The notes beneath the pieces were generated by a model. It was given only the letters and a program-made list of their open reading frames with translations. It did not search any database and was not told the DNA's origin. Shown here piece by piece: positions 30,355 through 54,895 of a DNA stretch of 64,000 nt (positions are counted from its first letter, which is position 1; each line of letters begins with the position of its first letter). Location of the stretch: the NCBI GenBank assembly GCA_905181815.1, contig CAJIZA010000001.1, forward strand, positions 620,001 to 684,000, read 5' to 3'. Position numbers and translations under genes: made by a program. The DNA is from an uncultured Planktomarina sp. GTDB lineage: Bacteria; Pseudomonadota; Alphaproteobacteria; Rhodobacterales; Rhodobacteraceae.

Positions 30355-32454
30355 ATGCAAAAGCAAACTGTGCGCCTGGGCGTGGACATCGGCGGTACCT
30401 TCACGGATGTCGTTTTGGAGCGTGGCGTCGCCCTCTTTTCCACCAAAGTCTTAACCACCTATCGCGCCCCAGAAGAGGCCATTGTCGAGGGCATGGCCCG
30501 CGTCTGTGCGCAAGCCCAAATCGATCCCGTTGAGATCAACCAGATCATTCATGGCACCACTCTTGCCACAAATGCTTTGATCGAGCGCCGCGGTGCCAAG
30601 ACCGCTTTGATCACCACCGAGGGCTTCCGCGATGTCATTGAGATGCGAACCGAAAGCCGCTTTGAACAATATGACCTCAACCTCACCCTGCCCCCACCGC
30701 TCCTGCCCCGCAATTTTCGCTACACAATCGAAGAGCGGATGCAGGCCGATGGTCAAGTACTTAAGCCGATCAACCGCGCTGAGATTGAAGCCCTTGTAGA
30801 TGAAATTAAGCAGGCCGGTTTTGAGAGCATCGCGGTGGGATTTCTGCATTCCTACGTCAATGACGCTCATGAGCGCCTTGTGGCTGAAGTTGTTTCTGAG
30901 AAAATACCCGGCGCCATGCTTTCGCTGTCCTGCGAAGTCAGCCCGCAGATGCGCGAATATGAGCGCTTCAACACCACCATCGCCAATGCCTATATTAAAC
31001 CCTTGATGAAAACCTATTTGGGCCGTCTCAAAGGGCGTTTGAACGGTGCAGGAGCTTCATGTCCAATCTTTTTGATGCACTCCGGTGGCGGAATCATCAG
31101 CCTGGAAAATGCCACTGAATTTCCCGTTCGCTTGGTAGAATCCGGCCCGGCTGGCGGAGCGGTTTTTGCGGCCCATATCGCCGCGCGTCACAAGATTGAT
31201 AAGGTGCTCTCTTTCGACATGGGCGGCACCACAGCGAAGATTTGCCTCATCAAAGACCAAACACCAAAAACTGCCCGTGTCTTCGAGATCGCACGCAGCT
31301 ATCGGTTCAAAAAAGGCTCGGGCATGCCCATTTCAATTCCCGTGATCGATATGGTCGAGATCGGCGCCGGTGGGGGCTCCTTAGCCCATGTCGACAGCCT
31401 GCAGCAAATCAGGGTTGGGCCAGAAAGCGCCGGTTCCGAGCCTGGCCCGGCCTGCTATGACCGTGGCGGCACCCGACCGGCGGTGACCGATGCCGATTTA
31501 GTCCTGGGACGGCTGGATCCGGACAACTTTGCGGGCGGACGCATCGCGCTGAAGCCTGCAGCGAGTGCAGCTGCGCTTGCGGCACATTTGGGAGATACGC
31601 TCGATATGGACACCCAAACCGCAGCCTTCGGCCTCTCTGAGGTTGTGGATGAAAATATGGCTAATGCCGCGCGGGTGCATGCCGTGGAAAACGGCGAAGA
31701 CCTCAGCGATTACACGATGATCGCCTTTGGCGGCGCAGCCCCTTTGCACGCTGGGCGCTTATGCGAAAAATTGGGCATTGCCCGTCTCCTCGTGCCCACT
31801 GGAGCCGGGGTCGGATCTGCTATTGGTTTTCTGTGCGCCCCTTTCAGCTTTGAAGCCACCCGCAGCCAGTTCATGCGTCTGGCTGATTTTAGATCTAACG
31901 TGGCGACTGGCTTGCTGGTGGAATTGACACAGGAAGCCACAGCCTTTGTGCGCAGCTGTGACGCGAAAGCCAAAATTGAGGCGCAATACAAAGTCTATAT
32001 GCGCTATTCGGGCCAGGGATGGGAAATTCCCGTGCCCTTTGATGCCGCCCTAGCCCAATCTCCTGATGCGGCGCAGTTTGAAGCGCTGTTTGAGCGCGAA
32101 TACCAAACCCTTTTTGGCCGCAATGTCGCAGGTATGGACATTGAGATCACCGTTTGGTCCGTCAATGCCACAACCACCGCCGCACCCGTAAAATCCCTGG
32201 CGCCCCAGCCGGCTGGCCAGCGCTTGACGGCCACCCATTACCGCAGCCTGTTTGACGCTGCATCCGCGCAAAAAACACAGGCGGCACACTGGCGTCGCGC
32301 GGACTTGGCCATAGGCGCAGAGCTGGACGGGCCTGCGGTAATTGGGGAAGATGAAACCACCATCATCGTGCCCAAATCCCGCCGCGCTCGAGCGATGAGT
32401 GATGGATGTATTGAGCTGACGGCGCGTTCAACACAGAAAGGAGCGGCTCAATGA
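30355..32454 (+). CDS. hyuA: Hydantoinase/5-oxoprolinase subunit A (HyuA)
   Basis: The 699-residue protein starts MQKQTVRLGVDIGGTFTDVVLERG. This is the N-terminal ASKHA ATP-binding motif of the hydantoinase A/oxoprolinase family. It also has IIHGTTLATNALIERRGAKTALITTEGFRD (as a landmark around residues 60-90) and the MGGTTAKICLI motif near residue 290. Such enzymes use ATP to open cyclic amides (hydantoins, 5-oxoproline, N-methylhydantoin) or to carboxylate ketones (acetone and acetophenone carboxylases). A GGAGG Shine-Dalgarno 5 bases before the ATG at 30355 fixes the start. It overlaps hyuB by 4 bases and leads a four-gene operon. Confidence 0.9.
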   Translation: MQKQTVRLGVDIGGTFTDVVLERGVALFSTKVLTTYRAPEEAIVEGMARVCAQAQIDPVEINQIIHGTTLATNALIERRGAKTALITTEGFRDVIEMRTESRFEQYDLNLTLPPPLLPRNFRYTIEERMQADGQVLKPINRAEIEALVDEIKQAGFESIAVGFLHSYVNDAHERLVAEVVSEKIPGAMLSLSCEVSPQMREYERFNTTIANAYIKPLMKTYLGRLKGRLNGAGASCPIFLMHSGGGIISLENATEFPVRLVESGPAGGAVFAAHIAARHKIDKVLSFDMGGTTAKICLIKDQTPKTARVFEIARSYRFKKGSGMPISIPVIDMVEIGAGGGSLAHVDSLQQIRVGPESAGSEPGPACYDRGGTRPAVTDADLVLGRLDPDNFAGGRIALKPAASAAALAAHLGDTLDMDTQTAAFGLSEVVDENMANAARVHAVENGEDLSDYTMIAFGGAAPLHAGRLCEKLGIARLLVPTGAGVGSAIGFLCAPFSFEATRSQFMRLADFRSNVATGLLVELTQEATAFVRSCDAKAKIEAQYKVYMRYSGQGWEIPVPFDAALAQSPDAAQFEALFEREYQTLFGRNVAGMDIEITVWSVNATTTAAPVKSLAPQPAGQRLTATHYRSLFDAASAQKTQAAHWRRADLAIGAELDGPAVIGEDETTIIVPKSRRARAMSDGCIELTARSTQKGAAQ

Positions 32455-34175
32455 TCTCTCCCACGACACCCCGATCCACTTCTGAAGTGCAGTATCAAGT
32501 CATGTGGAACCGCCTGATCTCTGTGGTCGAAGAGCAGGCCCAAGCTCTGGTGCGTACGGCGTTCTCGACCTCCGTGCGCGAGGCCGGGGATCTTTCTGCC
32601 GGGGTCTATGACGCGCAAGGCCACATGCTGGCCCAAGCGGTCACCGGCACCCCAGGCCATGTCAATGCCATGGCCGATGCGGTGGCCCATTTCATACGCC
32701 GGATTGGCCGCGAAAATTTCGCCCCCGGCGATATTTACATCACCAATGATCCTTGGGAGGGCACTGGCCACTTACATGATATAACAATTGTAACCCCGAG
32801 TTACTACAATGAAAATTTTGTTGGATTCTTTGCCTGCACGGCGCATATCGTTGATATCGGTGGCCGGGGATTTGGGGCGGATGCCAATAGTGTCTACGAG
32901 GAAGGTCTCTACATACCCATTATGAAATTGGCCGATCGGGGCATGGTGGATCGGGCCTTGATGCAAATCATCCGCGGCAATGTGCGCGAGCCTGATCAAC
33001 TGGTGGGAGACATCTATGCGCTGGCCAGCTGCAACGAAATTGGGCTCCGGCGCTTGATTGATATGATGGACGAATTTGAGCTTGTGGATTTGTCAGGTAT
33101 TTCAGAGTTTATTCTCTCCAACTCCCGCCGCGCGACGCGCGAGCGGATCAACGCGCTGACGCCCGGCATGGCCCGAGGGGAAATGCGCAGTGACGGCTAT
33201 TCGCAGCCGGTCGATCTAAAAGTGCAGGTCACCATCGAAAAGGACCGCATTTTATGCGATTTTGCCGGCACTTCTGGCCTGGATAAGAAGGGCATCAACT
33301 GCCCACTGGTCTACACCAAAGCCTATGCCTGCTACGCGCTAAAATGCGCCATTGCGCCAGAGATTCCTAATAACGCAGCCAGCCTTGCGCCCTTCGAAAT
33401 CACAGCTCCCGAAAACACCATCGTTAATGCCCTGCATCCCGCCCCTGTGGCGCTGCGTCATATAATTGGCCATATGGTCCCCGATGCGGTCTATGCGGCT
33501 TTGGATCAATTACTGCCCGGACTGGTGCCTGCCGAGGGAGCGGGATGCTTGTGCAATTTCCAAGTCTCCCTTCGCGCCCGCAGCGATGTACCCACCCCAC
33601 CTCATGCCCGGCGCGCAGAGGTTTTGACCTTCAACTCCGGCGGATCTGGTGCTCGACCCGGTTTGGATGGTATGAACGCCACTGCTTTTCCCAGTGGTGT
33701 GATGACCATGCCCATCGAAGCTACCGAGCAGGTCGGTCCAGTTTTAATTTGGCGCAAAGAGCTGCGTCCCGACAGCGGCGGCACAGGCCGACATCGCGGC
33801 GGATTGGGCCAATATATGGAGGTTGGCGCGCAAGAAGGCTATGAATTTGACATCCAAGCAATGTTCGATCGCGTCAACCACCCAGCCAATGGTCGCCAAG
33901 GCGGATCCAAAGGCGGGGCCACGACGATTGCGCTTAACGACGGCACAGCCATGCGTGGGAAAGGCAAGCAATTTGTGCCCCATGGTAAAAAAGTCATGAT
34001 GGCTTTTCCCGGTGGCGCTGGCTATGGGCCAGTCTCTGAGCGGACCACCGAAGAAATCCTCAAAGATCTGGCCGGCGGGTATATCACCGCACAGGCGGCC
34101 GAGGAGCTTTACGGTCTGGCGCCACAACAGATCGCCGATGTGTTGACGCGGGCAAAAAACGGCGAGGAGTTCTAA
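32451..34175 (+). CDS. hyuB: Hydantoinase/5-oxoprolinase subunit B (HyuB)
   Basis: The 574-residue partner subunit has the family N-terminus with NRLISVVEEQAQALVRTAFSTSVREAGD (around residues 18-45), the metal-site region GDIYITNDPWEGTGHLHD at about residues 92-110, and VDIGGRGFGADANSVYEEG. Together with HyuA it forms the catalytic complex. The ATG lies in the 4-base overlap with hyuA and its TAA is immediately followed by the ATG of the FAD oxidoreductase gene. Length is normal. The substrate is not readable from sequence. Confidence 0.9.
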   Translation: MISPTTPRSTSEVQYQVMWNRLISVVEEQAQALVRTAFSTSVREAGDLSAGVYDAQGHMLAQAVTGTPGHVNAMADAVAHFIRRIGRENFAPGDIYITNDPWEGTGHLHDITIVTPSYYNENFVGFFACTAHIVDIGGRGFGADANSVYEEGLYIPIMKLADRGMVDRALMQIIRGNVREPDQLVGDIYALASCNEIGLRRLIDMMDEFELVDLSGISEFILSNSRRATRERINALTPGMARGEMRSDGYSQPVDLKVQVTIEKDRILCDFAGTSGLDKKGINCPLVYTKAYACYALKCAIAPEIPNNAASLAPFEITAPENTIVNALHPAPVALRHIIGHMVPDAVYAALDQLLPGLVPAEGAGCLCNFQVSLRARSDVPTPPHARRAEVLTFNSGGSGARPGLDGMNATAFPSGVMTMPIEATEQVGPVLIWRKELRPDSGGTGRHRGGLGQYMEVGAQEGYEFDIQAMFDRVNHPANGRQGGSKGGATTIALNDGTAMRGKGKQFVPHGKKVMMAFPGGAGYGPVSERTTEEILKDLAGGYITAQAAEELYGLAPQQIADVLTRAKNGEEF

Positions 34176-35384
34176 ATGGCACTGCCGCTGCAAACCCCCA
34201 AAGCGAAAAGCTATGACGTAATCCTCATTGGCGGCGCCATGTATGGTAGCTCCATAGCCTGGTGGCTTAGCCGCAATCCGGGGTTTGACGGCTCTATTCT
34301 TGTGGTGGAGCGGGATCTCAGTTTTGAATTCACTTCCACAAGCCACACCAATTCCTGCATCCGCCAACAGTTTTCGAACTCAACCAATATCCAAATCAGC
34401 CAATTTGGTGCAGAGTTTATCAACAATTTTCAGAGCTATTTTGACCACGACCCCCGTATTCCAAAAATCCATATCCAATCTTTCGGCTATATGTATTTGG
34501 CCAATAGCGCCACTGGGGCCGAAAGCCTGCGTCGCAGTCAAGCGTTGCAGGCACAACTGGGCGCCGGTACGCGACATATGACAGCCTCTGAAATTCAAGC
34601 TGAATATCCATTTTATCATTTGGATGACATTACCGCAGGCAATCACAACACCGTCAACGAAGGCTATTTTGACGGCGGCACAATTTTTGATTGGTGCAAG
34701 CGCGTGGCCCAAGAAAAAGGCACCGAATACGTGCAAAATAGGGTTGTGGCGATTGACCGGCGCGCAGACCGAATTCAGAGCGTTACCCTGGCCTCGGGTG
34801 AAAATCTCACCTGTGGGTTATTGGTCAATTGCACAGGCCCCCGCGCCATACAAACTGCGCGCATGGCCGGGCTCGACTTGCCTGTTGAGCCGCGCAAACG
34901 CTACAGCTTCATCTTTGATGCCGAGCAGCCGTTAGAGCGCGACCTGCCCCTCACCATTGACCCCTCTGGCGTGCATATGCGTTCAGAGGGGCGCTATTAT
35001 CTCGCCGGCTGTCCGCCCGATGATGATGCGTCCGTAGCCTATGACGATTTCACCCAGGACCACAGTATTTGGCAAGAGAAGGTCTGGCCCATTCTCGCCG
35101 CCCGCGTGCCGCAATTTGAAGCGATCAAGCTGATCAACAGCTGGGCGGGACATTACGCCTATAACACCTTCGATCAAAACGCGATCATCGGCCCACATCA
35201 TCAGGTCGAGAACTTCCTCTTTGCAAATGGGTTTTCTGGCCACGGCTTACAACAATCCATGGCAATCGGGCGAGGATTGGCAGAATTTATCACCTACGGC
35301 GCCTATCGCAGCATTGACCTTTCCCCCTTCGCATACAAACGTATCGAAGACGGCAATCCCTTTATCGAAAAGGCAGTAATTTGA
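34176..35384 (+). CDS. FAD-dependent oxidoreductase, DAO (amino acid/sarcosine oxidase-like) family
   Basis: The 402-residue flavoprotein has the dinucleotide motif DVILIGGAMYGSSIAWWL at about residues 14-31. Later segments include TSHTNSCIRQQFSNS, where related enzymes contact the flavin, and the C-terminal GFSGHGLQQSMAIGRGLAE. DAO-family members oxidise C-N bonds of secondary or tertiary amines and amino acids. It follows hyuB with no gap and overlaps the next gene by one base (TGATG), so its substrate is probably made or consumed by the HyuAB step. Note that GGAMYG departs from the common GxGxxG pattern at one position. Confidence 0.8.
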   Translation: MALPLQTPKAKSYDVILIGGAMYGSSIAWWLSRNPGFDGSILVVERDLSFEFTSTSHTNSCIRQQFSNSTNIQISQFGAEFINNFQSYFDHDPRIPKIHIQSFGYMYLANSATGAESLRRSQALQAQLGAGTRHMTASEIQAEYPFYHLDDITAGNHNTVNEGYFDGGTIFDWCKRVAQEKGTEYVQNRVVAIDRRADRIQSVTLASGENLTCGLLVNCTGPRAIQTARMAGLDLPVEPRKRYSFIFDAEQPLERDLPLTIDPSGVHMRSEGRYYLAGCPPDDDASVAYDDFTQDHSIWQEKVWPILAARVPQFEAIKLINSWAGHYAYNTFDQNAIIGPHHQVENFLFANGFSGHGLQQSMAIGRGLAEFITYGAYRSIDLSPFAYKRIEDGNPFIEKAVI

Positions 35385-36220
35385 TGAAAAAACTCGTGTT
35401 AACCGGGGCAGCGGGGCGGCTGGGCTCGTATCTGCGCGAACCCCTGAGCCAGATGTGCGACAGCCTGGTCTCCACCGATTGGACCGATGACATCGGCAAG
35501 CTTTATCCCGGTGAGACCTATGTGAAAGCAGACCTTGGAGATCTGGACGCCATCGAGGCGGTGCTTGATGGCGCGGAAATGGTTATCCATTTTGGCGCTA
35601 TTGGCGATGAGGCCGCCTGGGACAAGATTCTACATTCCAATATCATTGGCGCCTACAACGTGTGGGAAGCTGCCGCTCGCAAGGGGCTGCGCCGCGTGGT
35701 CTATGCCAGCTCCATCCATGCGGTGGGCATGTATCCGAAAACCCAAAGGATCGATACCGAGGTGCCGCACCGCCCGGACACTTACTATGGTTTGGCAAAA
35801 TGTTTCGCAGAGGATCTTGGCAGTCTCTACTGGGACAAAAAGGGCATTGAGAGTGTGCATCTGCGCATCCTTTCCGCCGCTCAGGTCAATAATCCGCGCG
35901 CGCTCGGCTCCTGGCTGTCCTACGACGATCTGATCCATTTGGTTCAGCAGGCCATCACCACACCGATCACAGGCTTTTCAGTAATTTATGGCGTGTCTAA
36001 CAATGACCAATTCACGGTCGACAATCACAAGGTGGCCTTCTTGGGCTATCGTCCCAAAGACAATGCAGAGCAATTTGCCGCTGAGGTCCTAGCTACCGCC
36101 GATCCAGCAGATCCCCATGACCCCGGACAAATGTGCCAAGGCGGGCCCTTCGCCTCAGTGGAGATTGGATTTTCAGGCACGGCCAGCATGAATATCGTGC
36201 AAGACAAAAAAGAAATATAA
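35384..36220 (+). CDS. NAD-dependent epimerase/dehydratase-family SDR, uronate dehydrogenase-like
   Basis: The 278-residue protein starts MKKLVLTGAAGRLGSYLREPL. It has the Rossmann motif TGAAGRLG, the active-site region VYASSIHAVGMYPKTQR and Y-x-x-x-K as YYGLAKCFAEDLG at about residues 134-146, and a C-terminal FLGYRPKDNAEQFA. This pattern resembles bacterial uronate dehydrogenase, which oxidises galacturonate or glucuronate to lactones. No uronate genes are adjacent, so a different alcohol or hemiacetal substrate produced by the operon is more likely. It ends the hyuA-led operon. Confidence 0.78.
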   Translation: MKKLVLTGAAGRLGSYLREPLSQMCDSLVSTDWTDDIGKLYPGETYVKADLGDLDAIEAVLDGAEMVIHFGAIGDEAAWDKILHSNIIGAYNVWEAAARKGLRRVVYASSIHAVGMYPKTQRIDTEVPHRPDTYYGLAKCFAEDLGSLYWDKKGIESVHLRILSAAQVNNPRALGSWLSYDDLIHLVQQAITTPITGFSVIYGVSNNDQFTVDNHKVAFLGYRPKDNAEQFAAEVLATADPADPHDPGQMCQGGPFASVEIGFSGTASMNIVQDKKEI

Positions 36221-36321
36221 ACCCCCCATGGCGGCGGACCCAACCGCTCCCAACTGCTGCGCACCATCCAACCGTTAGGGCGCCACCTCTCGGCGCGAGC
36301 TGCAATCTGCCCCGGGCGCGC

Positions 36322-37167
36322 TCATCGCCAGTAAAGATTGCGCGGCGCGGGGGTGAAGTCCGCCAGCGTTTTGGGCGCATAGATCTCGATCACCAGCGGA
36401 TGGCATTGCGCTGTGTCGCTGGAATGCTCTGCGCCGCAATCGCCGCCCGGGCAGGCAGAGAGGCCGAGTGTGATATCAATCTGCGCCTCAAGCTCAAGGA
36501 AGTCTCCCGGACGCACGGGGCTGGCCTTCATGAAATATTGATGCGTGTCGCAGGTAAACCCCGTCAACATGAAGACATTGAGCACATCATGCACATGCCG
36601 CTCCGCCTCCTCAAGCGGCAGATCAAAGTGATCTGCCACAGCGCGCGTCAGGTTGGAATGGCAGCAATAGTGGTAATCTGTACCACTGAGCAGGCGGCCG
36701 GTATAGGGATCACAGCGTGTGCCAATCACATCATGCACCGAGCCGCCATCGGCGTCATAGTCATACCAGTCAAGCGTGTCACAGGTGATATGCGCCAAGG
36801 GCCGCATGAACGGAAAGCTCGACCAGAGACTGTCACCCGTGCTGACATGGGTGCCGTGCAGGGCACGTGTTTTACCGCTGTAGAACCGCTCGTCGATGTT
36901 GTGGCTGTTCCAAATGTTCAGATCCCCCACCTGCGGCCCCTCCACAGACACAATCCGCGCAAAATGCCCTGCGGGAACATCAATGCAGGCGGCTGTTCGG
37001 GGCGGCACAGAGAGCCGCTGCAGCAATTCTGCGCCCTCCCGCCTTGCAGCTGAAGCCGCCAGATCTACCTGCGGCAGGGTCTCGGTGGGATAGCACACAA
37101 CCACCGGACGCGCCCGCCGCGCCTGCGCATCTGTGGGTTCTGCGTGCGTGGGATGTTGATGTTTCAT
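36322..37167 (-). CDS. DUF1989 / urea carboxylase-associated family protein
   Basis: The 281-residue protein has DUF1989 features. These include VPAGHFARIVSVEGPQVGDLNIWN, the HGTHVSTGDSLWSSFPFM region, TDYHYCCHSNLTRAV with adjacent Cys residues, and a Cys pair in ACPGGDCG near the C-terminus, which suggests a metal site. Family members sit next to urea carboxylase or allophanate genes and act on small amide or guanidine compounds. It lies on the opposite strand between the two plus-strand operons and is divergent from the PLP lyase gene across 100 bases, which suggests shared control. Confidence 0.82.
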   Translation of the reverse strand: MKHQHPTHAEPTDAQARRARPVVVCYPTETLPQVDLAASAARREGAELLQRLSVPPRTAACIDVPAGHFARIVSVEGPQVGDLNIWNSHNIDERFYSGKTRALHGTHVSTGDSLWSSFPFMRPLAHITCDTLDWYDYDADGGSVHDVIGTRCDPYTGRLLSGTDYHYCCHSNLTRAVADHFDLPLEEAERHVHDVLNVFMLTGFTCDTHQYFMKASPVRPGDFLELEAQIDITLGLSACPGGDCGAEHSSDTAQCHPLVIEIYAPKTLADFTPAPRNLYWR

Positions 37168-37267
37168 TTGATCTCTCTATGTGGATGCCCCCATGTTAGT
37201 GGCGCGCGATGAAATTGACAATTCCACGCTGTGACAGGTCGCATATGGGCTTGCTCTTACGAGCGCG

Positions 37268-38332
37268 ATGGGCTCCATTTACGCCATGGATATATTGCAA
37301 AACCCCCACCGCCACACGGGCTTGACCGTCGACATCCTGCGCGACATCCCCGCCCCCTCGACCGATGCTGCCGCTGTGCAAGCCCTTCTGGCCCGTTGCC
37401 CCAATGCCGCTGAAACTGAAATGCTGCAAGCTCCCAGTATTGCCCAAGCTCTCAAGATCGCGCGCCTCAGCGTGAAGGATGAGCGCGGCCGCATGGGCCT
37501 GGGCAGTTTCAAAGCACTTGGCGCCGCCTATGTCATCGCCCATAGCGCCATCATCAAAGGCGAAGTGCAGAGCGCGAAAACCTATGTCACCGCCAGTGCA
37601 GGAAATCACGGGCTTAGCGTGGCGGCCGGCGCAAAGGCCTTTGGCGCCACCTCCGTGATCTTTCTCAGCCAAAGCGTGCCAGAAGCCTTTGCCAAACGAT
37701 TGATCGCGCAAGGCGCAAAAGTCGAGCGCGCCGGCGAGACTTATGAGCAGAGCATGAGCGCGGCGCAAGCCGCGGCCAAGCACAATGGCTGGACGTTGCT
37801 ATCGGACAGCTCTTGGCCTGGCTACAGCGATTTGAGCCATCGTTTGATGGAGGGCTATACAGTCTTTATGGCCGAATCCGAGCGGCAAATTTCTGCTCCT
37901 ACCCATATCTTTTTGCAAGCCGGTGTTGGCGGACTGGCCGGAGCCGCAGCCGCGATGGCCCGCAAAATTTGGGGCGATGCACCGGTGATCGTGGTGGTCG
38001 AACCAATCCACGCCCCCGCTTTGCACGGCTGTATTCACGCCGGTGATTTCGTCGCCGCCAAAGGTCCAGGAAGCGCCATGGGCCGGCTGGATTGCCTCGA
38101 AGCCTCTTTGATCGCCCTTAAGGGGCTGGCCAAGGATGCCGATGTCTTTGCGCTCATCAGCGAAGAAGAAGGCCAAGCCGGCGCCGATTATGCCGCAGCC
38201 CATCAGATGGAGAGCACGCCCTCCGGGGCTGCAGGTCTGGCAGGTCTCTTTGCCTCACCCGCCCATCGTGCGGCGCTCAAACTTGACGCAAACTCTCATG
38301 TGCTCGTGATACTTTCAGAAGGTCCAGAATAA
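37268..38332 (+). CDS. PLP-dependent lyase, diaminopropionate ammonia-lyase-like
   Basis: The 354-residue fold-type II PLP enzyme has the Schiff-base Lys82 in MGLGSFKALGAAYV, the cofactor-cradling SAGNHGLSVAAGA, and the phosphate-binding glycine loop QAGVGGLAGAAAA. It resembles diaminopropionate ammonia-lyase and threonine dehydratase; the ectoine protein EutB belongs to the same superfamily. It would eliminate ammonia from an amino acid. A second in-frame ATG at 37286 (MDILQNPHRHTG) is an equally good start; neither has a strong Shine-Dalgarno. Its TAA shares a base with the ATG of the M24 gene. Confidence 0.82.
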   Translation: MGSIYAMDILQNPHRHTGLTVDILRDIPAPSTDAAAVQALLARCPNAAETEMLQAPSIAQALKIARLSVKDERGRMGLGSFKALGAAYVIAHSAIIKGEVQSAKTYVTASAGNHGLSVAAGAKAFGATSVIFLSQSVPEAFAKRLIAQGAKVERAGETYEQSMSAAQAAAKHNGWTLLSDSSWPGYSDLSHRLMEGYTVFMAESERQISAPTHIFLQAGVGGLAGAAAAMARKIWGDAPVIVVVEPIHAPALHGCIHAGDFVAAKGPGSAMGRLDCLEASLIALKGLAKDADVFALISEEEGQAGADYAAAHQMESTPSGAAGLAGLFASPAHRAALKLDANSHVLVILSEGPE

Positions 38333-39471
38333 TGCCCCAAGGCTTCGAAACCGCAGAATTTAAAGCGCGTCTGACACGGGCACAAAGCCGCATGGATGCG
38401 GCGGATCTGGATGCAATCTTACTGACCACAGAGCCAGATATTCGCTATTTCACCGGCTACCTCACAAGATTCTGGGAAAGCCCGTGCCGGCCTTGGTTCT
38501 TGGTTTTGCCCCGCTCTGGCGATCCCATTGCTGTCATCCCCTCGATTGGGGCGGCGCTAATGGCCCACACATGGATAACAGATATTCGCACATGGCGTGC
38601 GCCAGATCTCGAAGATGATGGCATAAGCCTTTTGGCTGAGACCCTGCGTGCTTTAGGCCCACGCATTGGCACTCCCAGCGGGTTACAGTCACATCTGCGC
38701 ATGCCACTGGGCGATTTTGCCCGGCTCAATGCAACTCTTCCCCAGCCCATTGAAGCCGATGCTGACATTCTACGCAGCCTGCGTTTGGTGAAATCTGAGG
38801 CTGAGATTGAGAAAATCAAGACAGCTTGCCAGATTGCCACCCGCGCCTTTGTACGCGTGCCGGAGATTGCCCGCATTGGCCAGCCTTTGGCACCGGTGTT
38901 TCGTGATTTTCAGCGTCTTTGCCTGGATGAAGGTGCCGATTGGGTGCCCTATCTCGCCGGTGCTGCGGCGCCCGGCGGCTATGGCGATGTGATCTCTCCA
39001 GCCAACGACCGTCCGCTAGAGGCGGGCGATGTCTTGATGCTGGATACTGGCTTGGTGCATGATGGCTATTTTTGCGATTTTGATCGCAACTTTGCCGTTG
39101 GTATCCCATCACCAGATGTTGCCGCAGGACACGGCCGTTTGATTGAGGCCACATATGCCGCTTTTGAGGCCGCGCGACCGGGCAATACCGCCGCAGAGCT
39201 GTTTCACGTCATGGACAAGATTGTCACCGGCGGCGCCGGCGGGTCCGAGGCAGGCCGCTATGGCCATGGGCTTGGTATGAACCTCACGGAATGGCCCAGC
39301 TTGATCCCAACGGATCACACGCCGCTGGTCTCAGGCATGGTCCTCACCTTGGAACCGGGGATCGAACTGGCGCTGGGCCGCACCTTGGTTCATGAGGAAA
39401 ATATCGTCATTCGCGATCATGGCGCCGAGTGGCTCAGCCAACCCTATGGCGCCGAGATGGTTAGGATTTGA
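38332..39471 (+). CDS. M24-family metallohydrolase (Xaa-Pro peptidase type)
   Basis: The 379-residue pita-bread enzyme has a creatinase/prolidase N-terminal domain and keeps the dinuclear metal ligands. These are Asp238 in MLDTGLVHDG, Asp249 in FCDFDRNF, His312 in GHGLGMN, Glu341 in LTLEPGIEL and Glu355/356 in VHEENIV. It therefore looks like a metal-dependent peptidase or amidohydrolase, not a metal-free creatinase. Ectoine hydrolase DoeA/EutD is also M24. It is coupled to the PLP lyase (TAATG) and to the racemase gene 2 bases downstream, so it likely hydrolyses an amide in the same pathway. Confidence 0.83.
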   Translation: MPQGFETAEFKARLTRAQSRMDAADLDAILLTTEPDIRYFTGYLTRFWESPCRPWFLVLPRSGDPIAVIPSIGAALMAHTWITDIRTWRAPDLEDDGISLLAETLRALGPRIGTPSGLQSHLRMPLGDFARLNATLPQPIEADADILRSLRLVKSEAEIEKIKTACQIATRAFVRVPEIARIGQPLAPVFRDFQRLCLDEGADWVPYLAGAAAPGGYGDVISPANDRPLEAGDVLMLDTGLVHDGYFCDFDRNFAVGIPSPDVAAGHGRLIEATYAAFEAARPGNTAAELFHVMDKIVTGGAGGSEAGRYGHGLGMNLTEWPSLIPTDHTPLVSGMVLTLEPGIELALGRTLVHEENIVIRDHGAEWLSQPYGAEMVRI

Positions 39472-39472
39472 C

Positions 39473-40219
39473 ATGAACTTAATGCCATATAACGTTGTTT
39501 CAATTGAAGTGACTAGAATTGGATTTGTGGTGTTACAATCAGATGAAACCATAGAGCGCGATATGATGCAGATGCGCGGCACTGCGGATCTCTTCTTTAG
39601 CCGCGTGCCCAGCGGGCAAGAGGTCACAGCCGAAACGCTGCAATCTATGGCAGGGCATATTAAAGCCTCAGCGGCGCTCTTTCCCCAAACCCTGCGCTTG
39701 AACGCCGTGGGCTATGGCTGCACCTCGGGCACGGCTCAAATTGGTGTGCAGGAAATCGAGCGGCTGGTGAAATCTGGCACAAAAACCCAAGCGGTCAGCC
39801 AGCCCGTATCCGCACTGGTGGCGGCCTGTCAGCATCTCAAGCTCAAACGTATTGCGTTTTTGTCTCCCTACCTCGAACAGGTCAGTGCCAATTTGCGGAA
39901 AGTTCTGCAAGAGAACGGCGTTGAAACCCCAGTTTTCGGCACTTTCGGCGAGGCCGACGAATCTAAGGTTGTACGCATTTCTGGCGTATCGGTACAAGCC
40001 GCGGCCCATCATCTGCTCGCAGACGGTGGGCTTGACGGCATTTTTCTCAGCTGCACCAACCTGCGCACAATGGATTTGATTGCCCCCATGGAAGCTGAGC
40101 TAGGCTTACCAGTGCTCTCTAGCAATCTTGTGTTAGCTTGGCATCTTGCGCAGCTGTCTGGCGATCCACAGGCGTTTCATGGTCCCGGTCGGCTCTTTGC
40201 CTCCCAAGTCACCGACTGA
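39473..40219 (+). CDS. Asp/Glu racemase superfamily protein (maleate isomerase/EutA-like)
   Basis: The 248-residue protein has the two catalytic-type cysteines of the family: Cys83 in VGYGCTSGTAQIG and Cys194 in FLSCTNLRTMDLI. The SCTNLRT motif is shared by maleate cis-trans isomerases, arylmalonate decarboxylases and EutA of ectoine utilisation. I start it at the ATG at 39473, two bases after the M24 stop; an in-frame upstream start would overlap the M24 gene by 80 bases. It is the last gene of this operon, convergent with the ABC transporter. The reaction is unknown. Confidence 0.8.
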   Translation: MNLMPYNVVSIEVTRIGFVVLQSDETIERDMMQMRGTADLFFSRVPSGQEVTAETLQSMAGHIKASAALFPQTLRLNAVGYGCTSGTAQIGVQEIERLVKSGTKTQAVSQPVSALVAACQHLKLKRIAFLSPYLEQVSANLRKVLQENGVETPVFGTFGEADESKVVRISGVSVQAAAHHLLADGGLDGIFLSCTNLRTMDLIAPMEAELGLPVLSSNLVLAWHLAQLSGDPQAFHGPGRLFASQVTD

Positions 40220-40324
40220 GAAACCCTACGCGACACTTAAACCCACTGCAAAAACCCAGAACTGGGCGGGTAAGAAGCCTCTAGTGATTCCAGCAGACCC
40301 AGATGCTTGAGCAAAAAGGAAAAT

Positions 40325-40355
40325 TGCGTCGCTTGTCCTCATGAAAACCGACGCA
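40325..40355. repeat. Inverted repeat in the convergent gap between racemase and permease genes
   Basis: TGCGTCG and CGACGCA are perfect 7-bp arms separated by 17 bases, in the 153-bp gap between convergent operons. No T-run follows on either strand, so I cannot call a terminator, though a bidirectional stop here would make sense. Confidence 0.35.
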
Positions 40356-40372
40356 CGGCGATAAATTTCACT

Positions 40373-41614
40373 TTAGGACGGGCTCACACCGCGCAGGCGC
40401 TCCGATCTGCGGCGCAGCAATTCCACCGTGGTCAAAAGCAAGATCGAGATAATGACCAAAATCGTCGCAACAGCCAAGATGGTGGGCGAAATCTGCTCAC
40501 GAATGCCGCTGAACATCTGTCGCGGAATCGTGCGTTGGCGCACATCCGCCAGTTGCAACACCGCCACAACCTCATCAAAGCTGGTAATAAAGGCAAATAG
40601 CGCCCCGGAAATCACCCCAGGCAGGATCAACGGCATTTGCACCTTGAAGAAGGTGCGGATAGGCCCCGCCCCCATATTCGCACTGGCCCGAGTTAAGGAT
40701 TGATCAAAGCCCGACAAGGTGGCCGTGACCGTGATGATCACAAATGGTGTGCCCAAAGCCGCATGTGCCAGAATGATGCCAAGATAGGTTTTTGCCAATC
40801 CCACACTCGAGAAAAAGAAAAACAGACCCGACGCGGTGATCACCAAGGGCACAATCATGGGTGAAATAAGCAAGGCCATGATTGGGCGGCGCCAGGGCAT
40901 ATCGCTGGAGGACAGACCAACGGCTGCCAGCGTGCCCAGAGCCGTTGAGATCATCGTCGCCCAGAAGCCAATGAAAAAGGAATTGCGAATTGAACGAATC
41001 CATTGCGCATTCGACCACATATCACTCCACCAACCGACAATCGCCGCTGGATCAACCATGCCATTTTGCAAAATATCGATATACCAGCGCATCGAATAGG
41101 CCAGCGGATCAAAGCGCAACATCCCGGGGGTGAAGCTGAAATATGGCTCTTGGTTAAAGCTCAATGGGATCAATACGAAAATCGGCATGATCAAGAAGAC
41201 AAAGATCATCCCGCAAATCACGCGAAAACTGTAGAACCAAAGCACCTGCCGCGCCGTGGCATAGGGCGGCAAGTTCAATCGATAGCGGCCCGAAGCCAGC
41301 CAACAGGTCATGCCACCAGCAATGTAACCCACAATGGCCATCAACACGCCGTAAGCAAAGCCAACCAAGACCGTCCCCGCAGCGAAGAAGAAGGTCATAC
41401 CAAGCCAAGCGGCCAAACGTCCACGATCCTCAAGCCGGGTCATGGCAAAGGAAAAGGCCGCAAAGAGCACCGCACCAATGGCCAGAAAAGGCAGCATGAG
41501 CCCCGTATCGCCTTGGGCTGTCATCAAACCGGCCAAGCCGCCAAAGCCTGCCACAATCCCCACAGTGAACCCAAGCGGCGGTTTGGGTGGAATATAACGG
41601 TATTCACCTGTCAT
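40373..41614 (-). CDS. ABC importer permease, PotC-type, with an extra N-terminal membrane region
   Basis: The 413-residue inner-membrane permease has the usual PotC-like core from about residue 130, including the EAA loop region ANMGAGPIRTFFKVQMPLILPGVISG (around residues 320-345). Before this core lie about 115 extra residues with four hydrophobic segments (FTVGIVAGFGGLAGLM, LMLPFLAIGAVLFAAF and others). Typical PotC proteins are near 260-270 residues. It begins 5 bases after the partner permease gene. It would pair with that permease to import a polyamine-like or opine-like cation. Confidence 0.85.
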   Translation of the reverse strand: MTGEYRYIPPKPPLGFTVGIVAGFGGLAGLMTAQGDTGLMLPFLAIGAVLFAAFSFAMTRLEDRGRLAAWLGMTFFFAAGTVLVGFAYGVLMAIVGYIAGGMTCWLASGRYRLNLPPYATARQVLWFYSFRVICGMIFVFLIMPIFVLIPLSFNQEPYFSFTPGMLRFDPLAYSMRWYIDILQNGMVDPAAIVGWWSDMWSNAQWIRSIRNSFFIGFWATMISTALGTLAAVGLSSSDMPWRRPIMALLISPMIVPLVITASGLFFFFSSVGLAKTYLGIILAHAALGTPFVIITVTATLSGFDQSLTRASANMGAGPIRTFFKVQMPLILPGVISGALFAFITSFDEVVAVLQLADVRQRTIPRQMFSGIREQISPTILAVATILVIISILLLTTVELLRRRSERLRGVSPS

Positions 41615-41619
41615 TGGTC

Positions 41620-42870
41620 TTACCCCAGTTTCATATTGTCTATGCCCACCACACGGTCATAGACCCAGAAGAGGAACATCACGAACACCAGCATCACCAG
41701 CCCGAGGGCCGCCGCAAGGTTCCAGTTAAGTGATTTTCGCATGTGGAAATCGATGATGTTAGAGACCATCTGCCCATCTTGCCCACCAACCAAAGCAGGG
41801 GTGATGTAATAGCCAATGGCCAAAATAAAGACCAACAAGGCCCCTGCCCCAATGCCTGGCACGGATTGCGGAAAATAGACGCGCCAAAAAGCCGTCCAAT
41901 CCGTTGCACCCATCGACTTGGCCGCCCGCACATAGCTTGGTGGAATGGTTTTCATGACAGAAAACAACGGCAAGATCATGAAGGGCAGCAAAATATGGGT
42001 CATGGCAATCAATGTGCCAGTTTTGTTGTAGATCAAACTGAACCGATCCTCATCCGTAGCCAGACCAAAGACCACAAATAGGTCATTCATCACCCCTTGG
42101 GCTTGGAGCATGGCGATCCAGGCCGTGGTGCGCACCAGTAGCGAAGTCCAAAACGGCAAAAGAACCAAAATCAAAAGCAAGTTCGACGTGCGCAGCGGCA
42201 GGGAGGCCATCAGAAACGCAATCGGATACCCAAGGATCAAACAAAATATCGTGACCAGAAAGGAAATTTCCATCGTCCGCGCAAAAAGCTGCACATGAAT
42301 GCGGCGTTCTTCGCTTTGCTGTACGATGGAACCGTCGGCCAGCATTTTGCGGTCCAAAGCCGCCGCGATATAGGCTGGCGTGTAGACTCGGCTGGCGGTT
42401 TTCATCGCATGCCAAGTTTCAATATCGGCCCAATCTTTGTCTTTCTTGATCAAAGCCTCCATGTAGGGGTGCTTCATTTTCTTGGCGTTGCGCGCGGTCT
42501 TGGTAAAGAGGCTACGGGTTCCGCTCAACTCACGATTGACACGCGTGGCCACTTTGCCAATGGTTTTTTCTTTTTTCGCGACCACCAAATCGGCTACCAA
42601 CGCGGCAGCCATCTCTTCGGTCGGTGCAGTGCTACCATCCCAATCGGCAATTGCCTCAGAAGTGGCCGGCATCAGCGTCGCAAACCGTGCATCATAGACA
42701 GATTGACGCAAGAAATCCAAAATTGGGTAGACAAAAACCACGATGATAAACGCCAAAAGCGGAAGGGCCAGGCCAAAGGCTCGTGCGCGGCTTCGAAACA
42801 TCGATTGCGCCAATTTCCGTTTTAGGGGGGTACCATCTACCGCAAGGAGCGGTCCAGAGGAGTCCGTCAT
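41620..42870 (-). CDS. ABC importer permease, PotB-type, with an enlarged periplasmic loop
   Basis: The 416-residue permease has its first membrane segment at about residues 34-53, then roughly 130 polar, Lys/Glu-rich residues, and then the usual five-helix core from about residue 185. The EAA-type loop SMGATDWTAFWRVYFPQSVPGIG is near residue 300. Normal PotB proteins have a much shorter loop at this point and about 280-300 residues in total. I start at MTDSSGPLL (42870) with an AGGA Shine-Dalgarno; an upstream in-frame start overlaps the 3' hairpin of the binding-protein gene. Confidence 0.85.
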   Translation of the reverse strand: MTDSSGPLLAVDGTPLKRKLAQSMFRSRARAFGLALPLLAFIIVVFVYPILDFLRQSVYDARFATLMPATSEAIADWDGSTAPTEEMAAALVADLVVAKKEKTIGKVATRVNRELSGTRSLFTKTARNAKKMKHPYMEALIKKDKDWADIETWHAMKTASRVYTPAYIAAALDRKMLADGSIVQQSEERRIHVQLFARTMEISFLVTIFCLILGYPIAFLMASLPLRTSNLLLILVLLPFWTSLLVRTTAWIAMLQAQGVMNDLFVVFGLATDEDRFSLIYNKTGTLIAMTHILLPFMILPLFSVMKTIPPSYVRAAKSMGATDWTAFWRVYFPQSVPGIGAGALLVFILAIGYYITPALVGGQDGQMVSNIIDFHMRKSLNWNLAAALGLVMLVFVMFLFWVYDRVVGIDNMKLG

Positions 42871-42899
42871 AAGTTTAAAGTCCTGAATTAATGGAAAGA

Positions 42900-42923
42900 A
42901 TGGGGCGCCCAAAGGCGCCCCAT
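42900..42923 (-). terminator. Strong hairpin after the binding-protein gene
   Basis: The arms ATGGGGCGCC and GGCGCCCCAT are perfectly complementary over 10 bp with a 4-base loop, 10 bases after the stop of the binding-protein gene. A short pyrimidine stretch TTCTTTCC follows on the transcribed strand. It is likely a partial terminator or an mRNA-stabilising element that lets the binding protein be made in excess over the permeases. Confidence 0.7.
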
Positions 42924-42933
42924 CAAGATCAAA

Positions 42934-44025
42934 TTAGTTGATCAACCAAGCGTTGAAACGCTCGTTAAGCTCATCTGCATTATCTGCCCAAAACTCAAAG
43001 TCGTTTGGAATAGCTGTTGCCAAGTTTGCTGCAGCAGTTGGCATTTGAGGACCCATTTCTAGGTCAGCGTTACTATGATACGTTGTCACATAGGGTGCTG
43101 ATGATTTTCTGGCTGGGCCGTAAGCGATGTAAGATGCTTGTGCTGCCAACTGCTCTGTCGCTGTTGAGAACTTCAAGAAGTCCATTGCCAATTCCGCATT
43201 TGGTGCGCCTTTGATGATCGCCCACATGTCAACGTCAAGAACTTGTGCGTCCCAAACGATTTCAAAGGATTTACCCTCACCGGCCACTGCGTTGAAAATA
43301 CGTCCGTTATAGGCTGTCGTCATAGCAACTTCGCCATCAGCCAACAATTGTGGAGGCTGCGCGCCAGCTTCCCACCAAACAACTATGTCTTTGATGGTGT
43401 CAAGTTTTGCAAATGCTCGATCAACCCCTTCGTCTGTTGCCAAAACGTCGTAGATGTCTGCGGACGCAACGCCGTCAGCAGCCAAAGCCATTTCCAAGTT
43501 TGCTTTTGGTGACTTGCGCAGACCGCGCTTGCCGGGAAAAGCAGCTGGATTGAAGAAGTCAGCGATTGAGGCTGGTCCTTTAGGCGTTACTGACGAGTCA
43601 TATGCAAAGATTGTGGACCAAACAATATTGGCGACAGCACAATCTGTGAACGAGCCTGGAATAAAGTCCTCGACGGCAGACGATCCATCAGAGCCATTTG
43701 GTAAGGATGTTGGGTCTATTTCCATGAACAAACCTTCGTCACAACCCCGAACTGCATCTGATTTTTCAACGTCGATAATGTCCCAAGTGACGTTACCAGC
43801 TTCCACTTGCGCTTTAACCTCAGCTATACCTCCAGAATAGTCCTCAGATACAACCGTATTGCCAGTCGCTGCAGTCCAAGGTTTATGGTAAGCTTCGACT
43901 TGCGAAACTGTATATGCGCCACCCCACGAAACAGCTGTGATACTGCCTGTATGGCTTCCAGCGAAAGCGCCGGATGCGCCGACAACTAAAGCTGAACTTG
44001 CTAAAAGTATATTTATATTTTTCAT
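42934..44025 (-). CDS. ABC importer periplasmic substrate-binding protein, PotD-type
   Basis: The 363-residue protein has a signal peptide (MKNINILLASSALVVGASGAFAGSH) and the PotD-like start of the mature protein (SITAVSWGGAYTVSQVEAY). Later segments include WDIIDVEKSDAVRGCDEGLF and GEVAMTTAYNGRIF. The family binds polyamines and related cationic or amino compounds, and this subgroup is broad, so the ligand is unknown. Of two closely spaced ATGs (44031, 44025) the second has better Shine-Dalgarno spacing from GGGAG. Its coding sequence is visibly lower in GC than the neighbours. Hairpins flank the gene on both sides. Confidence 0.87.
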   Translation of the reverse strand: MKNINILLASSALVVGASGAFAGSHTGSITAVSWGGAYTVSQVEAYHKPWTAATGNTVVSEDYSGGIAEVKAQVEAGNVTWDIIDVEKSDAVRGCDEGLFMEIDPTSLPNGSDGSSAVEDFIPGSFTDCAVANIVWSTIFAYDSSVTPKGPASIADFFNPAAFPGKRGLRKSPKANLEMALAADGVASADIYDVLATDEGVDRAFAKLDTIKDIVVWWEAGAQPPQLLADGEVAMTTAYNGRIFNAVAGEGKSFEIVWDAQVLDVDMWAIIKGAPNAELAMDFLKFSTATEQLAAQASYIAYGPARKSSAPYVTTYHSNADLEMGPQMPTAAANLATAIPNDFEFWADNADELNERFNAWLIN

Positions 44026-44059
44026 AGTCATAGTCTCCCAGTTAAAATTTAGTTATTTG

Positions 44060-44077
44060 CCCCGATCTACGCCGGGG
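44060..44077 (-). promoter_or_regulatory. Small GC hairpin in the 5' leader of the binding-protein gene
   Basis: CCCCG and CGGGG arms with an 8-base loop lie between the ATPase gene and the binding-protein start, 35 bases upstream of it. With the neighbouring hairpin at 44091-44112 it could act in processing or stabilising the transcript. Confidence 0.5.
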
Positions 44078-44090
44078 GTCTTTGTCCGAC

Positions 44091-44112
44091 TTGGAGGCTA
44101 TTAAGCCTCCAA
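44091..44112 (-). promoter_or_regulatory. Hairpin spanning the stop codon of the ATPase gene
   Basis: TTGGAGGCT and AGCCTCCAA form a perfect 9-bp stem with a 4-base loop that contains the TAA stop of the ATPase gene. No T-run follows, so it is more likely a stabilising or processing hairpin than a terminator. Confidence 0.6.
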
Positions 44113-45198
44113 AGCGCGGCAATCTTCGGGCATCCAGCCAATCTCAATTTGCGTGCCTGGTGTCAGGCGCACTTGATCTGGCGCGTTGCGCGTTTTGATA
44201 ATAAATTCATCATTGCCGGCCACGCGCAACCGCGTGCGGAAGATGTCGCCCATGTAGATAAACTCAAGAACTTCGGCTTGAAGCGTGTGCACACCTTTTT
44301 GCAAACGATCCTTGTTATATTCGACCCGCTCAGGACGAATTGACACACGAGTGCGCTCGCCCGGCTTAGTTACATTAACCGGTTTACAATCAATCAAATC
44401 GCCACTGTCCAACTCAACCAACGCCACACCGTTCTTGATCTCTTTTACCACACCTTCAAGGGTATTATTTTCACCGATAAATTGCGCCACAAAGCTATTT
44501 TCAGGGCTTTCATAAAGCTCATCGGGCGGGGCTATTTGCTGGATAACTCCATCGTTGAACACCGCGACCCGATCCGACATCGTCAGAGCTTCAGTTTGGT
44601 CATGGGTCACATAGACCACTGTGATCCCAAGTTTATGGGCCAGATCTGTGATCTCAAATTGCATCTTTTCCCGCAGTTGTTTGTCGAGAGCTCCCAAGGG
44701 CTCATCCATCAACACCAGTTCCGGTTCAAACACCAAAGCCCGCGCCAATGCGATACGCTGCTGCTGGCCACCAGACAGCTGGGCCGGGCGGCGCGAGATG
44801 AAATCTCCCATCTCAACCATATCCAGCGCGCGCTTCACCTTAGTCTCACGTCTAGATTTTCCGAACTTGCGCACCTCCAAGGGGAACGACAGATTCTCCC
44901 CAACGGTCATGTGAGGGAACAAGGCATAGTTTTGAAACACCATACCAATGCCACGTTTGTGGGGTGGGATATTGTTGATGGGCTTTCCATCAAGCAAAAT
45001 TTCTCCATGGGTGGCGGTCTCAAATCCGGCCAACATCATCAGGCAAGTAGTTTTACCTGAACCCGATGGGCCCAACATGGTTAAGAACTCACCCCGTGGA
45101 ATAGCCAAATTCAGGTCTTTGACCACTAAAACTTCGCCGTCGTAACTCTTTTGCACGCGTTGAAATTCAACAAATGCTTTCGTCTGTGCCTCAGCCAA
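44101..45198 (-). CDS. ABC importer ATPase, PotA-type
   Basis: The 365-residue ATPase has Walker A GPSGSGKTT at about residues 40-48, the Q-loop VFQNYALFPHMTV, the signature LSGGQQQRIALARAL at about residues 142-156, Walker B LVLMDEPLGALD and the H-loop YVTHDQTEALTM. A C-terminal TOBE domain follows from about residue 290. It leads the four-gene operon ATPase, binding protein, permease B, permease C. The 360 bases upstream, shared with the divergent flavin reductase gene, must carry its promoter. Confidence 0.9.
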   Translation of the reverse strand: MAEAQTKAFVEFQRVQKSYDGEVLVVKDLNLAIPRGEFLTMLGPSGSGKTTCLMMLAGFETATHGEILLDGKPINNIPPHKRGIGMVFQNYALFPHMTVGENLSFPLEVRKFGKSRRETKVKRALDMVEMGDFISRRPAQLSGGQQQRIALARALVFEPELVLMDEPLGALDKQLREKMQFEITDLAHKLGITVVYVTHDQTEALTMSDRVAVFNDGVIQQIAPPDELYESPENSFVAQFIGENNTLEGVVKEIKNGVALVELDSGDLIDCKPVNVTKPGERTRVSIRPERVEYNKDRLQKGVHTLQAEVLEFIYMGDIFRTRLRVAGNDEFIIKTRNAPDQVRLTPGTQIEIGWMPEDCRALEA

Positions 45199-54862: not shown

Positions 54863-54895
54863 ATCGGTTCCTTCCGTGTCGGTCGCAACCAGGTG

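Follow-up and report, generated by a model that had tools for sequence, protein, structure and literature searches.

Twelve genes at a Planktomarina locus

The locus of interest lies in the genome of an uncultured Planktomarina sp. (assembly GCA_905181815.1; completeness 91.7%), on contig CAJIZA010000001.1. All positions refer to a 64,000-nucleotide window of this contig (positions 620,001–684,000, forward strand). Twelve window genes are considered here: (i) operon 1, encoding hydantoinase subunits HyuA and HyuB, a DAO-family flavoprotein and a short-chain dehydrogenase/reductase (SDR), (ii) operon 2, a trio encoding a pyridoxal phosphate (PLP)-dependent lyase, an M24 metallohydrolase and an EutA-like protein, (iii) a four-gene importer operon of the Pot type, and (iv) a single DUF1989 gene (Table 1). 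An earlier note on this DNA had joined all of them in one catabolic pathway. Our analysis favours, with a probability of roughly one half, two independent catabolic modules that are neighbours in Planktomarina. One, operon 2 with the importer, would serve an ectoine-type compound; the other, operon 1, a lactam. This reading rests on gene families, conserved motifs, neighbourhoods and co-occurrence, from which we infer the substrates and reactions.

The genes themselves are as previously described: all are open frames, with family matches above Pfam cut-offs (Hydantoinase_A, Hydantoinase_B, DAO, an NAD-dependent epimerase-type domain for the SDR, DUF1989, PALP, M24 with Creatinase_N, Amdase, BPD_transp_1 in both permeases, SBP_bac_8, and ABC_tran with TOBE_2). 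The note had counted twelve genes in three operons, with DUF1989 in addition; in fact eleven genes form the three operons, and DUF1989 is the twelfth. The tight spacing reported for the plus-strand operons is borne out, with intervals of -4, 0 and -1 bases in operon 1, and -1 and +1 bases in operon 2. The importer operon has gaps of 69, 21 and 5 bases, and lies convergent to operon 2.

Two start sites require comment. Firstly, the HyuA start given earlier (30355) is an ATG, but the longest open reading frame (ORF) opens twelve bases upstream, at TTG 30343; in the congener (genome G045), the gene caller places the HyuA start at the ATG equivalent to 30355. Secondly, the longest ORF of the racemase-like gene opens inside the M24 gene. 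All five aligned homologues begin at residue 28 of this ORF, and hence the gene most likely occupies 39473–40219.

Table 1. Genes of the locus, with window positions and the matches on which their assignment rests.
Gene product	Position	Strand	Basis
HyuA, ATP-dependent hydantoinase/oxoprolinase A subunit (operon 1)	30355..32454	+	Hydantoinase_A, Hydant_A_N, Hydant_A_C
HyuB, hydantoinase B subunit (operon 1)	32451..34175	+	Pfam Hydantoinase_B, 470 bits
FAD-dependent DAO-family oxidase/dehydrogenase (operon 1)	34176..35384	+	Pfam DAO; PDB 1y56_B
SDR, uronate-dehydrogenase clade (operon 1)	35384..36220	+	Best PDB chain 3rft, E 8e-65
DUF1989 protein, divergent from operon 2	36322..37167	-	Pfam DUF1989
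PLP-dependent lyase, diaminopropionate ammonia-lyase-like (operon 2)	37268..38332	+	Pfam PALP; PRK08206; PDB 5ygr
M24 metallohydrolase (operon 2)	38332..39471	+	Pfam Peptidase_M24 + Creatinase_N
EutA/AMDase-type Asp/Glu racemase-superfamily enzyme (operon 2)	39473..40219	+	NCBIfam EutA, AMDase
Importer permease, PotC-like, 413 residues	40373..41614	-	Pfam BPD_transp_1
Importer permease, PotB position, 430 residues	41620..42912	-	Pfam BPD_transp_1
Importer binding protein, GABA/opine-binding clade	42934..44031	-	8jv1, 44% identity
Importer ATPase, PotA-type	44101..45198	-	TIGR01187, 377 bits

Operons 1 and 2 occur independently of each other

Five protein queries (lyase, DAO, SDR, DUF1989 and the importer's substrate-binding protein, SBP) and the eutD family model were searched in the same 149 genomes of the family. 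The Fisher co-occurrence tests count only strong matches of two genes, the lyase (51 of its 64 matching genomes) and the SDR (37 of 48); for eutD (97) and DUF1989 (107), they count all listed genomes. The lyase and the operon 1 SDR share 15 genomes, where 12.7 are expected (p = 0.42, n = 149); that is, they co-occur at chance level. Nor are they usually neighbours: of 19 other genomes carrying both, one has the SDR no further than 25 kb from the lyase, and for the DAO gene the count is one of 39. In each case the genome is G045, the sole congener in the set. DAO proximity was scored from the best place and some second copies, and covers the 90 further genomes where DAO is matched.

Operon 1 forms a conserved module in its own right. 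DAO and SDR genes lie within 4 kb of each other in 29 of the 36 genomes that carry both. Among 20 fetched DAO loci (chosen from 91 matching genomes for a high score or an adjacent SDR), 14 contain HyuA-HyuB-DAO, 13 of them with the SDR as well; two contain DAO-SDR without HyuAB, and four lack both HyuAB and the SDR. The lyase was seen in none of these loci. Elsewhere, operon 1 has other neighbours: a LysR gene is found upstream of HyuA in nine of the 14 HyuA-HyuB-DAO loci, an HpcH/HpaI aldolase gene lies between DAO and SDR in some loci, with an aspartate-type aminotransferase gene there less often, and some loci have ProU/betaine-type transporter genes next to the operon or to DAO (the latter in L102 and L207).

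Planktomarina itself was sampled in seven loci (L139–L145), which we call Planktomarina-type loci. Six are from named Planktomarina, with lyase identities to the window of 92%, 90% and, for four more, 66–68%; the seventh, from Rhodobacteraceae bacterium IMCC1909 (94%), is counted with them since its entire block is matched equally well. The gene order GCVT-HyuA-HyuB-DAO-SDR-trio, which starts with a neighbouring GCV_T gene, is conserved in six of the seven, down to 66% lyase identity. In locus L140, DAO-SDR and the trio are kept and HyuAB was not detected. The three operons were found together only in the window, in G045, and in those Planktomarina-type loci that extend far enough.

A single pathway of all twelve genes would run from import through HyuAB ring opening to oxidation, deamination and isomerisation. 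The block conserved in Planktomarina is consistent with it, as are two places in other genomes: L207 (Loktanella), where DAO-SDR without HyuAB lies about 8 kb from the trio, past gcvT, gcvP and a ProU-type transporter, and G069, where 6.5 kb separate a DAO gene from an importer match. However, general synteny within the genus can also explain the block, from which L140 lacks detected HyuAB, and in G045 two unrelated genes (one formylglycine-generating-enzyme-like, one with tetratricopeptide repeats) separate operon 1 from operon 2. Among the matches listed, 81 genomes have both DAO and an importer SBP match, and three place the two no more than 25 kb apart: the congener, G069, and G014 (12.5 kb). 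Together with chance-level co-occurrence and the differing neighbours and transporters of operon 1, these counts make one pathway for all three operons improbable, while block conservation to 66% lyase identity leaves some room for a genus-specific link. The single system thus fails the check that the earlier note had set for it, namely that the three operons should not be rare companions in other genomes. Overall, the note's interpretation is partly supported: as shown below, operon 2 recurs with the importer and DUF1989 in several genera, in differing arrangements, but operon 1 is separate.

The G069 locus (L111) deserves a separate remark. Its DAO gene, which stands without HyuAB or SDR, lies about 5–6 kb from matches to the importer ATPase and SBP (84% and 77%), at a contig end.

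Operon 2, DUF1989 and the importer recur as a group, in some genomes with eut genes

Strong lyase matches occur in 51 of the 149 family genomes, 49 of which also carry DUF1989 (36.6 expected; p = 3e-7, Fisher). DUF1989 adjoins the lyase gene in L078, L192 and L213, and is in the same fetched stretch in L075 and L077. Lyase neighbourhoods were fetched from 60 of 66 places, the window, G030, G033, G052, G079 and a second copy in G006 being excluded. Around 58 called lyases, M24 was called 51 times and an EutA-like protein 43 times; 80 further loci, some of which end at contig edges, gave an M24 match in 70 and an EutA-like match in 54.

Among the importer matches listed, and taking one SBP place per genome, the lyase is found no more than 15 kb from the importer in six of the 49 genomes that have both: the congener and five genomes of other genera (G024, G043, G082, G129 and G141). 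In four of these five, the pair is also near eutD/eutE. With the same scope, 89 genomes carry the importer and eutD, and in 28 of them the two are no more than 12 kb apart. Fewer than one case of each kind is expected by chance, according to a rough Poisson estimate that assumes 3-Mb genomes and random placement. Across genomes, the lyase and eutD co-occur in 43, where 33.2 are expected (p = 5e-4, Fisher).

In G141 (L075), one run comprises eutB, eutC, a class-III aminotransferase gene, the lyase, M24 and EutA-like genes, the importer ATPase, SBP and two permeases, and a second M24 gene; eutD and eutE lie divergent from it, with DUF1989 beyond. Three of these gene products score over family cut-offs: EutB (427 of 413 bits, PRK07476), EutC (448 of 408, the cyclodeaminase model PRK08291) and EutD (622 of 613, TIGR02993). 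EutB and EutC fall below the cut-offs of TIGR02991 (406 of 413) and TIGR02992 (412 of 472). The same enzyme set stands in one stretch in G024 and G082. In G129, eutD, eutE and the aminotransferase gene are present and eutB and eutC were not detected, while G043 has the trio, the importer and a second M24 gene, with no eut gene in the fetched stretch.

Partial versions also occur. G055 combines M24, EutA-like, eutE, eutD, a second M24, the aminotransferase and the importer, with the lyase elsewhere in the genome; G036 combines an eutD over the cut-off with the importer, EutA-like and M24 genes and a distant lyase match (34%). The lyase-importer pairing is seen again in Litoreibacter L192, where DUF1989, lyase, EutA-like and importer genes stand together, and in Nitratireductor L191, where one importer permease (before the contig edge) and a second M24 gene lie upstream of the trio. 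The importer is thus downstream of, upstream of, or convergent to its partners according to lineage, which argues for repeated gathering. Annotated genes for an arylmalonate decarboxylase (AMDase), a Xaa-Pro peptidase, the ehu ectoine transporter and a diaminopropionate ammonia-lyase share one stretch of an Aminobacter plasmid.

The eutD scores span about 800 to 300 bits over the 97 genomes, with 27 over the cut-off. In 25 of the 28 importer-adjacent cases, the eutD score falls slightly short of that cut-off, which suggests that there is a second EutD clade.

In the congener, genes for a luciferase-like monooxygenase, an aldehyde dehydrogenase and an AA_synth protein sit between the trio and the importer, and the same three kinds of gene are near the lyase trio in two lineages (L033, 13454–16576; L064, 11536–16335). 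The trio-importer gap of the window is too small for them. Homarine was considered as a substrate and rejected, given that lack of room and the lack of any homarine-pathway paper among the literature matches listed.

Features of the operon 2 proteins

The earlier note had described a PLP lyase and a racemase, and in both cases the superfamily holds while the closest relatives are more specific. The PALP gene is nearest to diaminopropionate ammonia-lyases, and scores below both family cut-offs: 232 bits against 276 for PRK08206 (232–260 with its relatives), and 140 against 532 for TIGR03528. Lys82, the PLP lysine in the motif GSFK, is invariant in 9/9 aligned sequences. Asp180 is also present, but Ala111 stands where 5ygr carries an Asp beside its GNHG motif. 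We assume for these positions the roles of the PLP lysine and the two active-site Asp residues of diaminopropionate ammonia-lyases.

The racemase-like protein belongs to the Asp/Glu racemase superfamily, and its only NCBIfam matches are EutA, the top match, and AMDase. On the EutA model TIGR02990 it scores 128 bits, and four relatives score 138–177 (cut-off 318). Both Cys110 and Cys221 (long-ORF numbering) are invariant in 6/6 aligned sequences, in keeping with the two conserved Cys residues that are presumably catalytic throughout the superfamily.

The M24 protein is nearest to prolidases and dipeptidases. It retains the metal ligands D238, D249, H312 and E341 and an HEE motif, while the EutD of L075 (G141) has E, P, Y and M in the same columns. 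The ectoine hydrolase EutD works without metal. With its ligands kept where that EutD has lost them, the trio M24 is not an EutD, and it scores 53 bits on the EutD model (cut-off 613). It may perform an amide hydrolysis done elsewhere by EutD and EutE.

A reading of operon 2 without ectoine would follow these families more literally: the substrate would be a 2,3-diaminopropionate derivative or another beta-substituted amino acid, the M24 would act as a dipeptidase beside a racemase, the lyase would be a genuine diaminopropionate ammonia-lyase, and the eut neighbours would be a loose gathering of nitrogen-catabolism genes. The near-cut-off PRK08206 scores, the prolidase and dipeptidase affinity of the M24, and the many trios without importer or eut neighbours agree with this. 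We nevertheless think it rather unlikely: the Asp beside GNHG in 5ygr is Ala in the window lyase, the linkage to eutB, eutC, eutD, eutE and the importer is repeated, and the racemase-like protein finds EutA first.

Features of the importer

The importer had been called PotADBC, and Pot-like it is. Its ATPase exceeds the cut-off of the PotA subfamily model TIGR01187 (377 bits against 355.6), while the PotC equivalog scores 133 bits against 326. The binding protein is distant from Escherichia coli PotD (17% identity to 8y5i_E, and 18% to the spermidine-bound 1pot). It is closer to the SAR11 PotD bound to gamma-aminobutyric acid (GABA; 8jv1), at the identity given in Table 1. In a structural model (mean predicted local distance difference test score, pLDDT, of 90), the nearest structures after SAR11 PotD are mannopine-, agropinic acid- and GABA-binding proteins. 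SAR11 PotD and Atu4243, MotA and AgtB share the fold of the window protein at 29–44% identity, but their gene contexts are unlike that of the window importer.

Import of a cationic nitrogen compound, as the earlier note had it, is not supported by a binding protein that resembles GABA- and opine-binding proteins. A polyamine importer was likewise set aside, given the proximity to GABA-bound SAR11 PotD and the distance from E. coli PotD.

Both importer permeases are long (40373–42912, minus strand), and the BPD domain is confined to the C-terminal half of each. A codon-trained gene caller misses the window SBP.

Features of the operon 1 proteins

The HyuAB pair shares its A and B subunits, with their family Pfam domains, with N-methylhydantoinase, caprolactamase and 5-oxoprolinase systems. 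It differs in its linkage to DAO and SDR genes and in falling far under the caprolactamase/HyuAB NCBIfam equivalog cut-offs of 1000 bits: the scores are 483 bits (caprolactamase alpha, the best NCBIfam match of HyuA) and 159 bits. By sequence, the closest PDB chain to HyuA is 7hk5, an N-methylhydantoinase. The DAO protein is closest, by sequence and by fold, to 1y56_B, titled L-proline dehydrogenase from P. horikoshii; sarcosine oxidase and dimethylglycine dehydrogenase are the next nearest to its model (mean pLDDT 80).

The earlier description of the SDR as uronate-dehydrogenase-like holds, its match to the uronate dehydrogenase 3rft being nearly full-length. Counted from TTG 35381, residues S111, H113, Y136, K140, S165 and R173 are invariant in 15/15 module SDRs, and position 112 is Ile or Val in all 15, where uronate dehydrogenase has Asn. 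We take S111, N112, H113, S165 and R174 to be the substrate contacts of uronate dehydrogenase, with the roles that they have in Udh. The catalytic Ser/Tyr/Lys and these contacts are thus kept, except Asn112.

Such an SDR brings to mind agropinic acid, which is degraded through Ti plasmid-encoded enzymes: a HyuAB-like lactamase, a DAO-type opine oxidase and then a sugar dehydrogenase. Operon 1 could, by analogy, degrade a sugar-amino acid lactam. The uronate-dehydrogenase clade of the SDR and its Ser165 and Arg173 positions would fit, as would the HpcH aldolase of some loci, which resembles sugar-acid aldolases. We regard this as unlikely, because Asn112 is replaced in every module SDR, the DAO protein is closest to L-proline dehydrogenase and sarcosine oxidase, and the transporter genes that adjoin DAO or the operon in some loci are of the ProU/betaine type. 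Literature searches combining agropinic acid with hydantoinase, and hydantoinase with uronate dehydrogenase, found nothing.

A creatinine/N-methylhydantoin route was also weighed, given the nearness of HyuA to N-methylhydantoinase and the adjacent GCV_T gene. It was rejected: the GCV_T protein is DmdA-like, and no GCV_T match was found within limits in the 20 DAO loci. The GCV_T gene itself (28976–30082, minus strand) scores 359 bits on the dimethylsulfoniopropionate demethylase model (cut-off 410); it is found in all seven Planktomarina-type loci, adjoining HyuA in six. Its product is perhaps a DmdA relative acting on another substrate.

Proposed reactions of the two modules

Under the favoured reading of two modules, operon 2, DUF1989 and the importer would constitute one system for a zwitterionic, ectoine-type nitrogen compound, with 5-hydroxyectoine, or an intermediate that arises from it, as the likeliest candidate. 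The compound would enter through the Pot-type transporter; the metal-dependent M24 protein would hydrolyse an amide of the opened diamino acid, the two-cysteine EutA-like enzyme would invert a carbon centre, and the lyase would carry out a PLP-dependent beta-elimination on a hydroxy-diamino acid, rather than on diaminopropionate. In 5-hydroxyectoine, the hydroxylated carbon ends up as the beta carbon once the ring is opened to a diamino acid, and a fold-type II PLP lyase could therefore eliminate there. A proposal reported in PMC13188858 has EutABC acting on hydroxy forms of N-acetyl-diaminobutyrate and diaminobutyrate.

Operon 1 would be a separate general lactam module, often linked to a LysR gene, with a cyclic amino acid or imino acid as its substrate. 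Here, a cyclic imino acid, perhaps N-methylated, would be oxidised at a C-N bond by the DAO protein; the uronate-dehydrogenase-like SDR would turn the cyclic hemiaminal (the hydrated imine) into a lactam; and HyuAB would open the lactam with ATP. The aspartate-type aminotransferase and HpcH aldolase encoded elsewhere would suit a 4-hydroxyglutamate product.

Several observations weigh against this division of labour. For the ectoine side, the link is not seen in the window genome, where no eutD match was obtained at E<=1e-80, and the seven Planktomarina-type loci, as fetched, gave no match to eutB, eutC, eutD or eutE. The congener has an eutD over the cut-off, about 0.5 Mb from the trio, so the trio could do something else. 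No importer or eut gene was found in most of the 60 lyase neighbourhoods, eut genes being sought by protein match in part of them. The EutA-like proteins score far under their family cut-off, and the M24 is not an EutD. The importer's binding-protein family is nearly ubiquitous (130 of 149 family genomes, among the matches listed), and may therefore serve several pathways. The Fisher tests, moreover, ignore shared ancestry. For operon 1, the hydroxyproline-type route is chemistry by analogy only, and the window operon lacks HpcH and aminotransferase genes. As to the separation of the two, G069 and G014 have a DAO gene close to an importer match (in G014, a 36% second copy), G009 has one near an eutD, and the block is kept in Planktomarina to 66% lyase identity, though the neighbouring GCVT is kept as well.

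Relation to known ectoine systems

Ectoine/5-hydroxyectoine clusters consist of eutABCDE with uehABC or ehuABCD. Operon 2 is like them in its EutA-like protein, fold-type II PLP enzyme and M24 protein, and in certain genera eutB, eutC, eutD, eutE and the aminotransferase gene accompany the trio. It differs in an M24 that keeps the metal ligands lacking in EutD, a lyase that resembles diaminopropionate ammonia-lyase and not EutB, and an importer of the Pot type. The ectoine transporters named in PMC5924519 and PMC13188858 include Ueh, Ehu, Tea, BCCT and ProU-type systems; 'polyamine' and 'putrescine' are absent from both main texts. Searching the literature for ectoine with diaminopropionate ammonia-lyase returned only unrelated-looking papers. 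Within this small literature search, a Pot importer with eutDE and the trio appears undescribed, the kinds of enzyme being already known.

More speculatively, marine Rhodobacteraceae could possess an undescribed variant of ectoine-type catabolism. In it, a Pot importer of the GABA/opine clade, paired with eutD/eutE in many genera, would work with the metal-dependent M24, the two-cysteine EutA-like protein and a lyase that splits a hydroxylated diamino acid outright, bypassing the EutBC reduction; Planktomarina would have kept the lyase branch beside a separate and likewise undescribed lactam route. The combination is a tentative one, and rather doubtful. The ties of a Pot-type importer to eutD/eutE caution against reading such operons as polyamine transporters. 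Neighbourhoods point to ectoine, 5-hydroxyectoine and GABA-like zwitterions as candidate ligands of the importer, and to cyclic imino acids and their lactams as candidate substrates of HyuAB-DAO-SDR. Planktomarina is among the most abundant Roseobacter groups of temperate seas. With the lyase in about a third of the family genomes (51 of 149), usually with M24 beside it, the lyase substrate would be widely eaten.

Other genes in the window

Two further regions of the window, both on the minus strand, are of note. At 47836–49566, a single 576-residue frame combines YmdB-like phosphoesterase and EamA transporter domains, which may reflect a fusion or an assembly effect. At 52286–61049, genes encode a regulator with helix-turn-helix and shikimate kinase-like parts, a ferredoxin/NAD-binding reductase, an enoyl-CoA hydratase-type protein, an alpha/beta hydrolase and an AMP-ligase, a set that we take to resemble an aerobic benzoyl-CoA (box) cluster.

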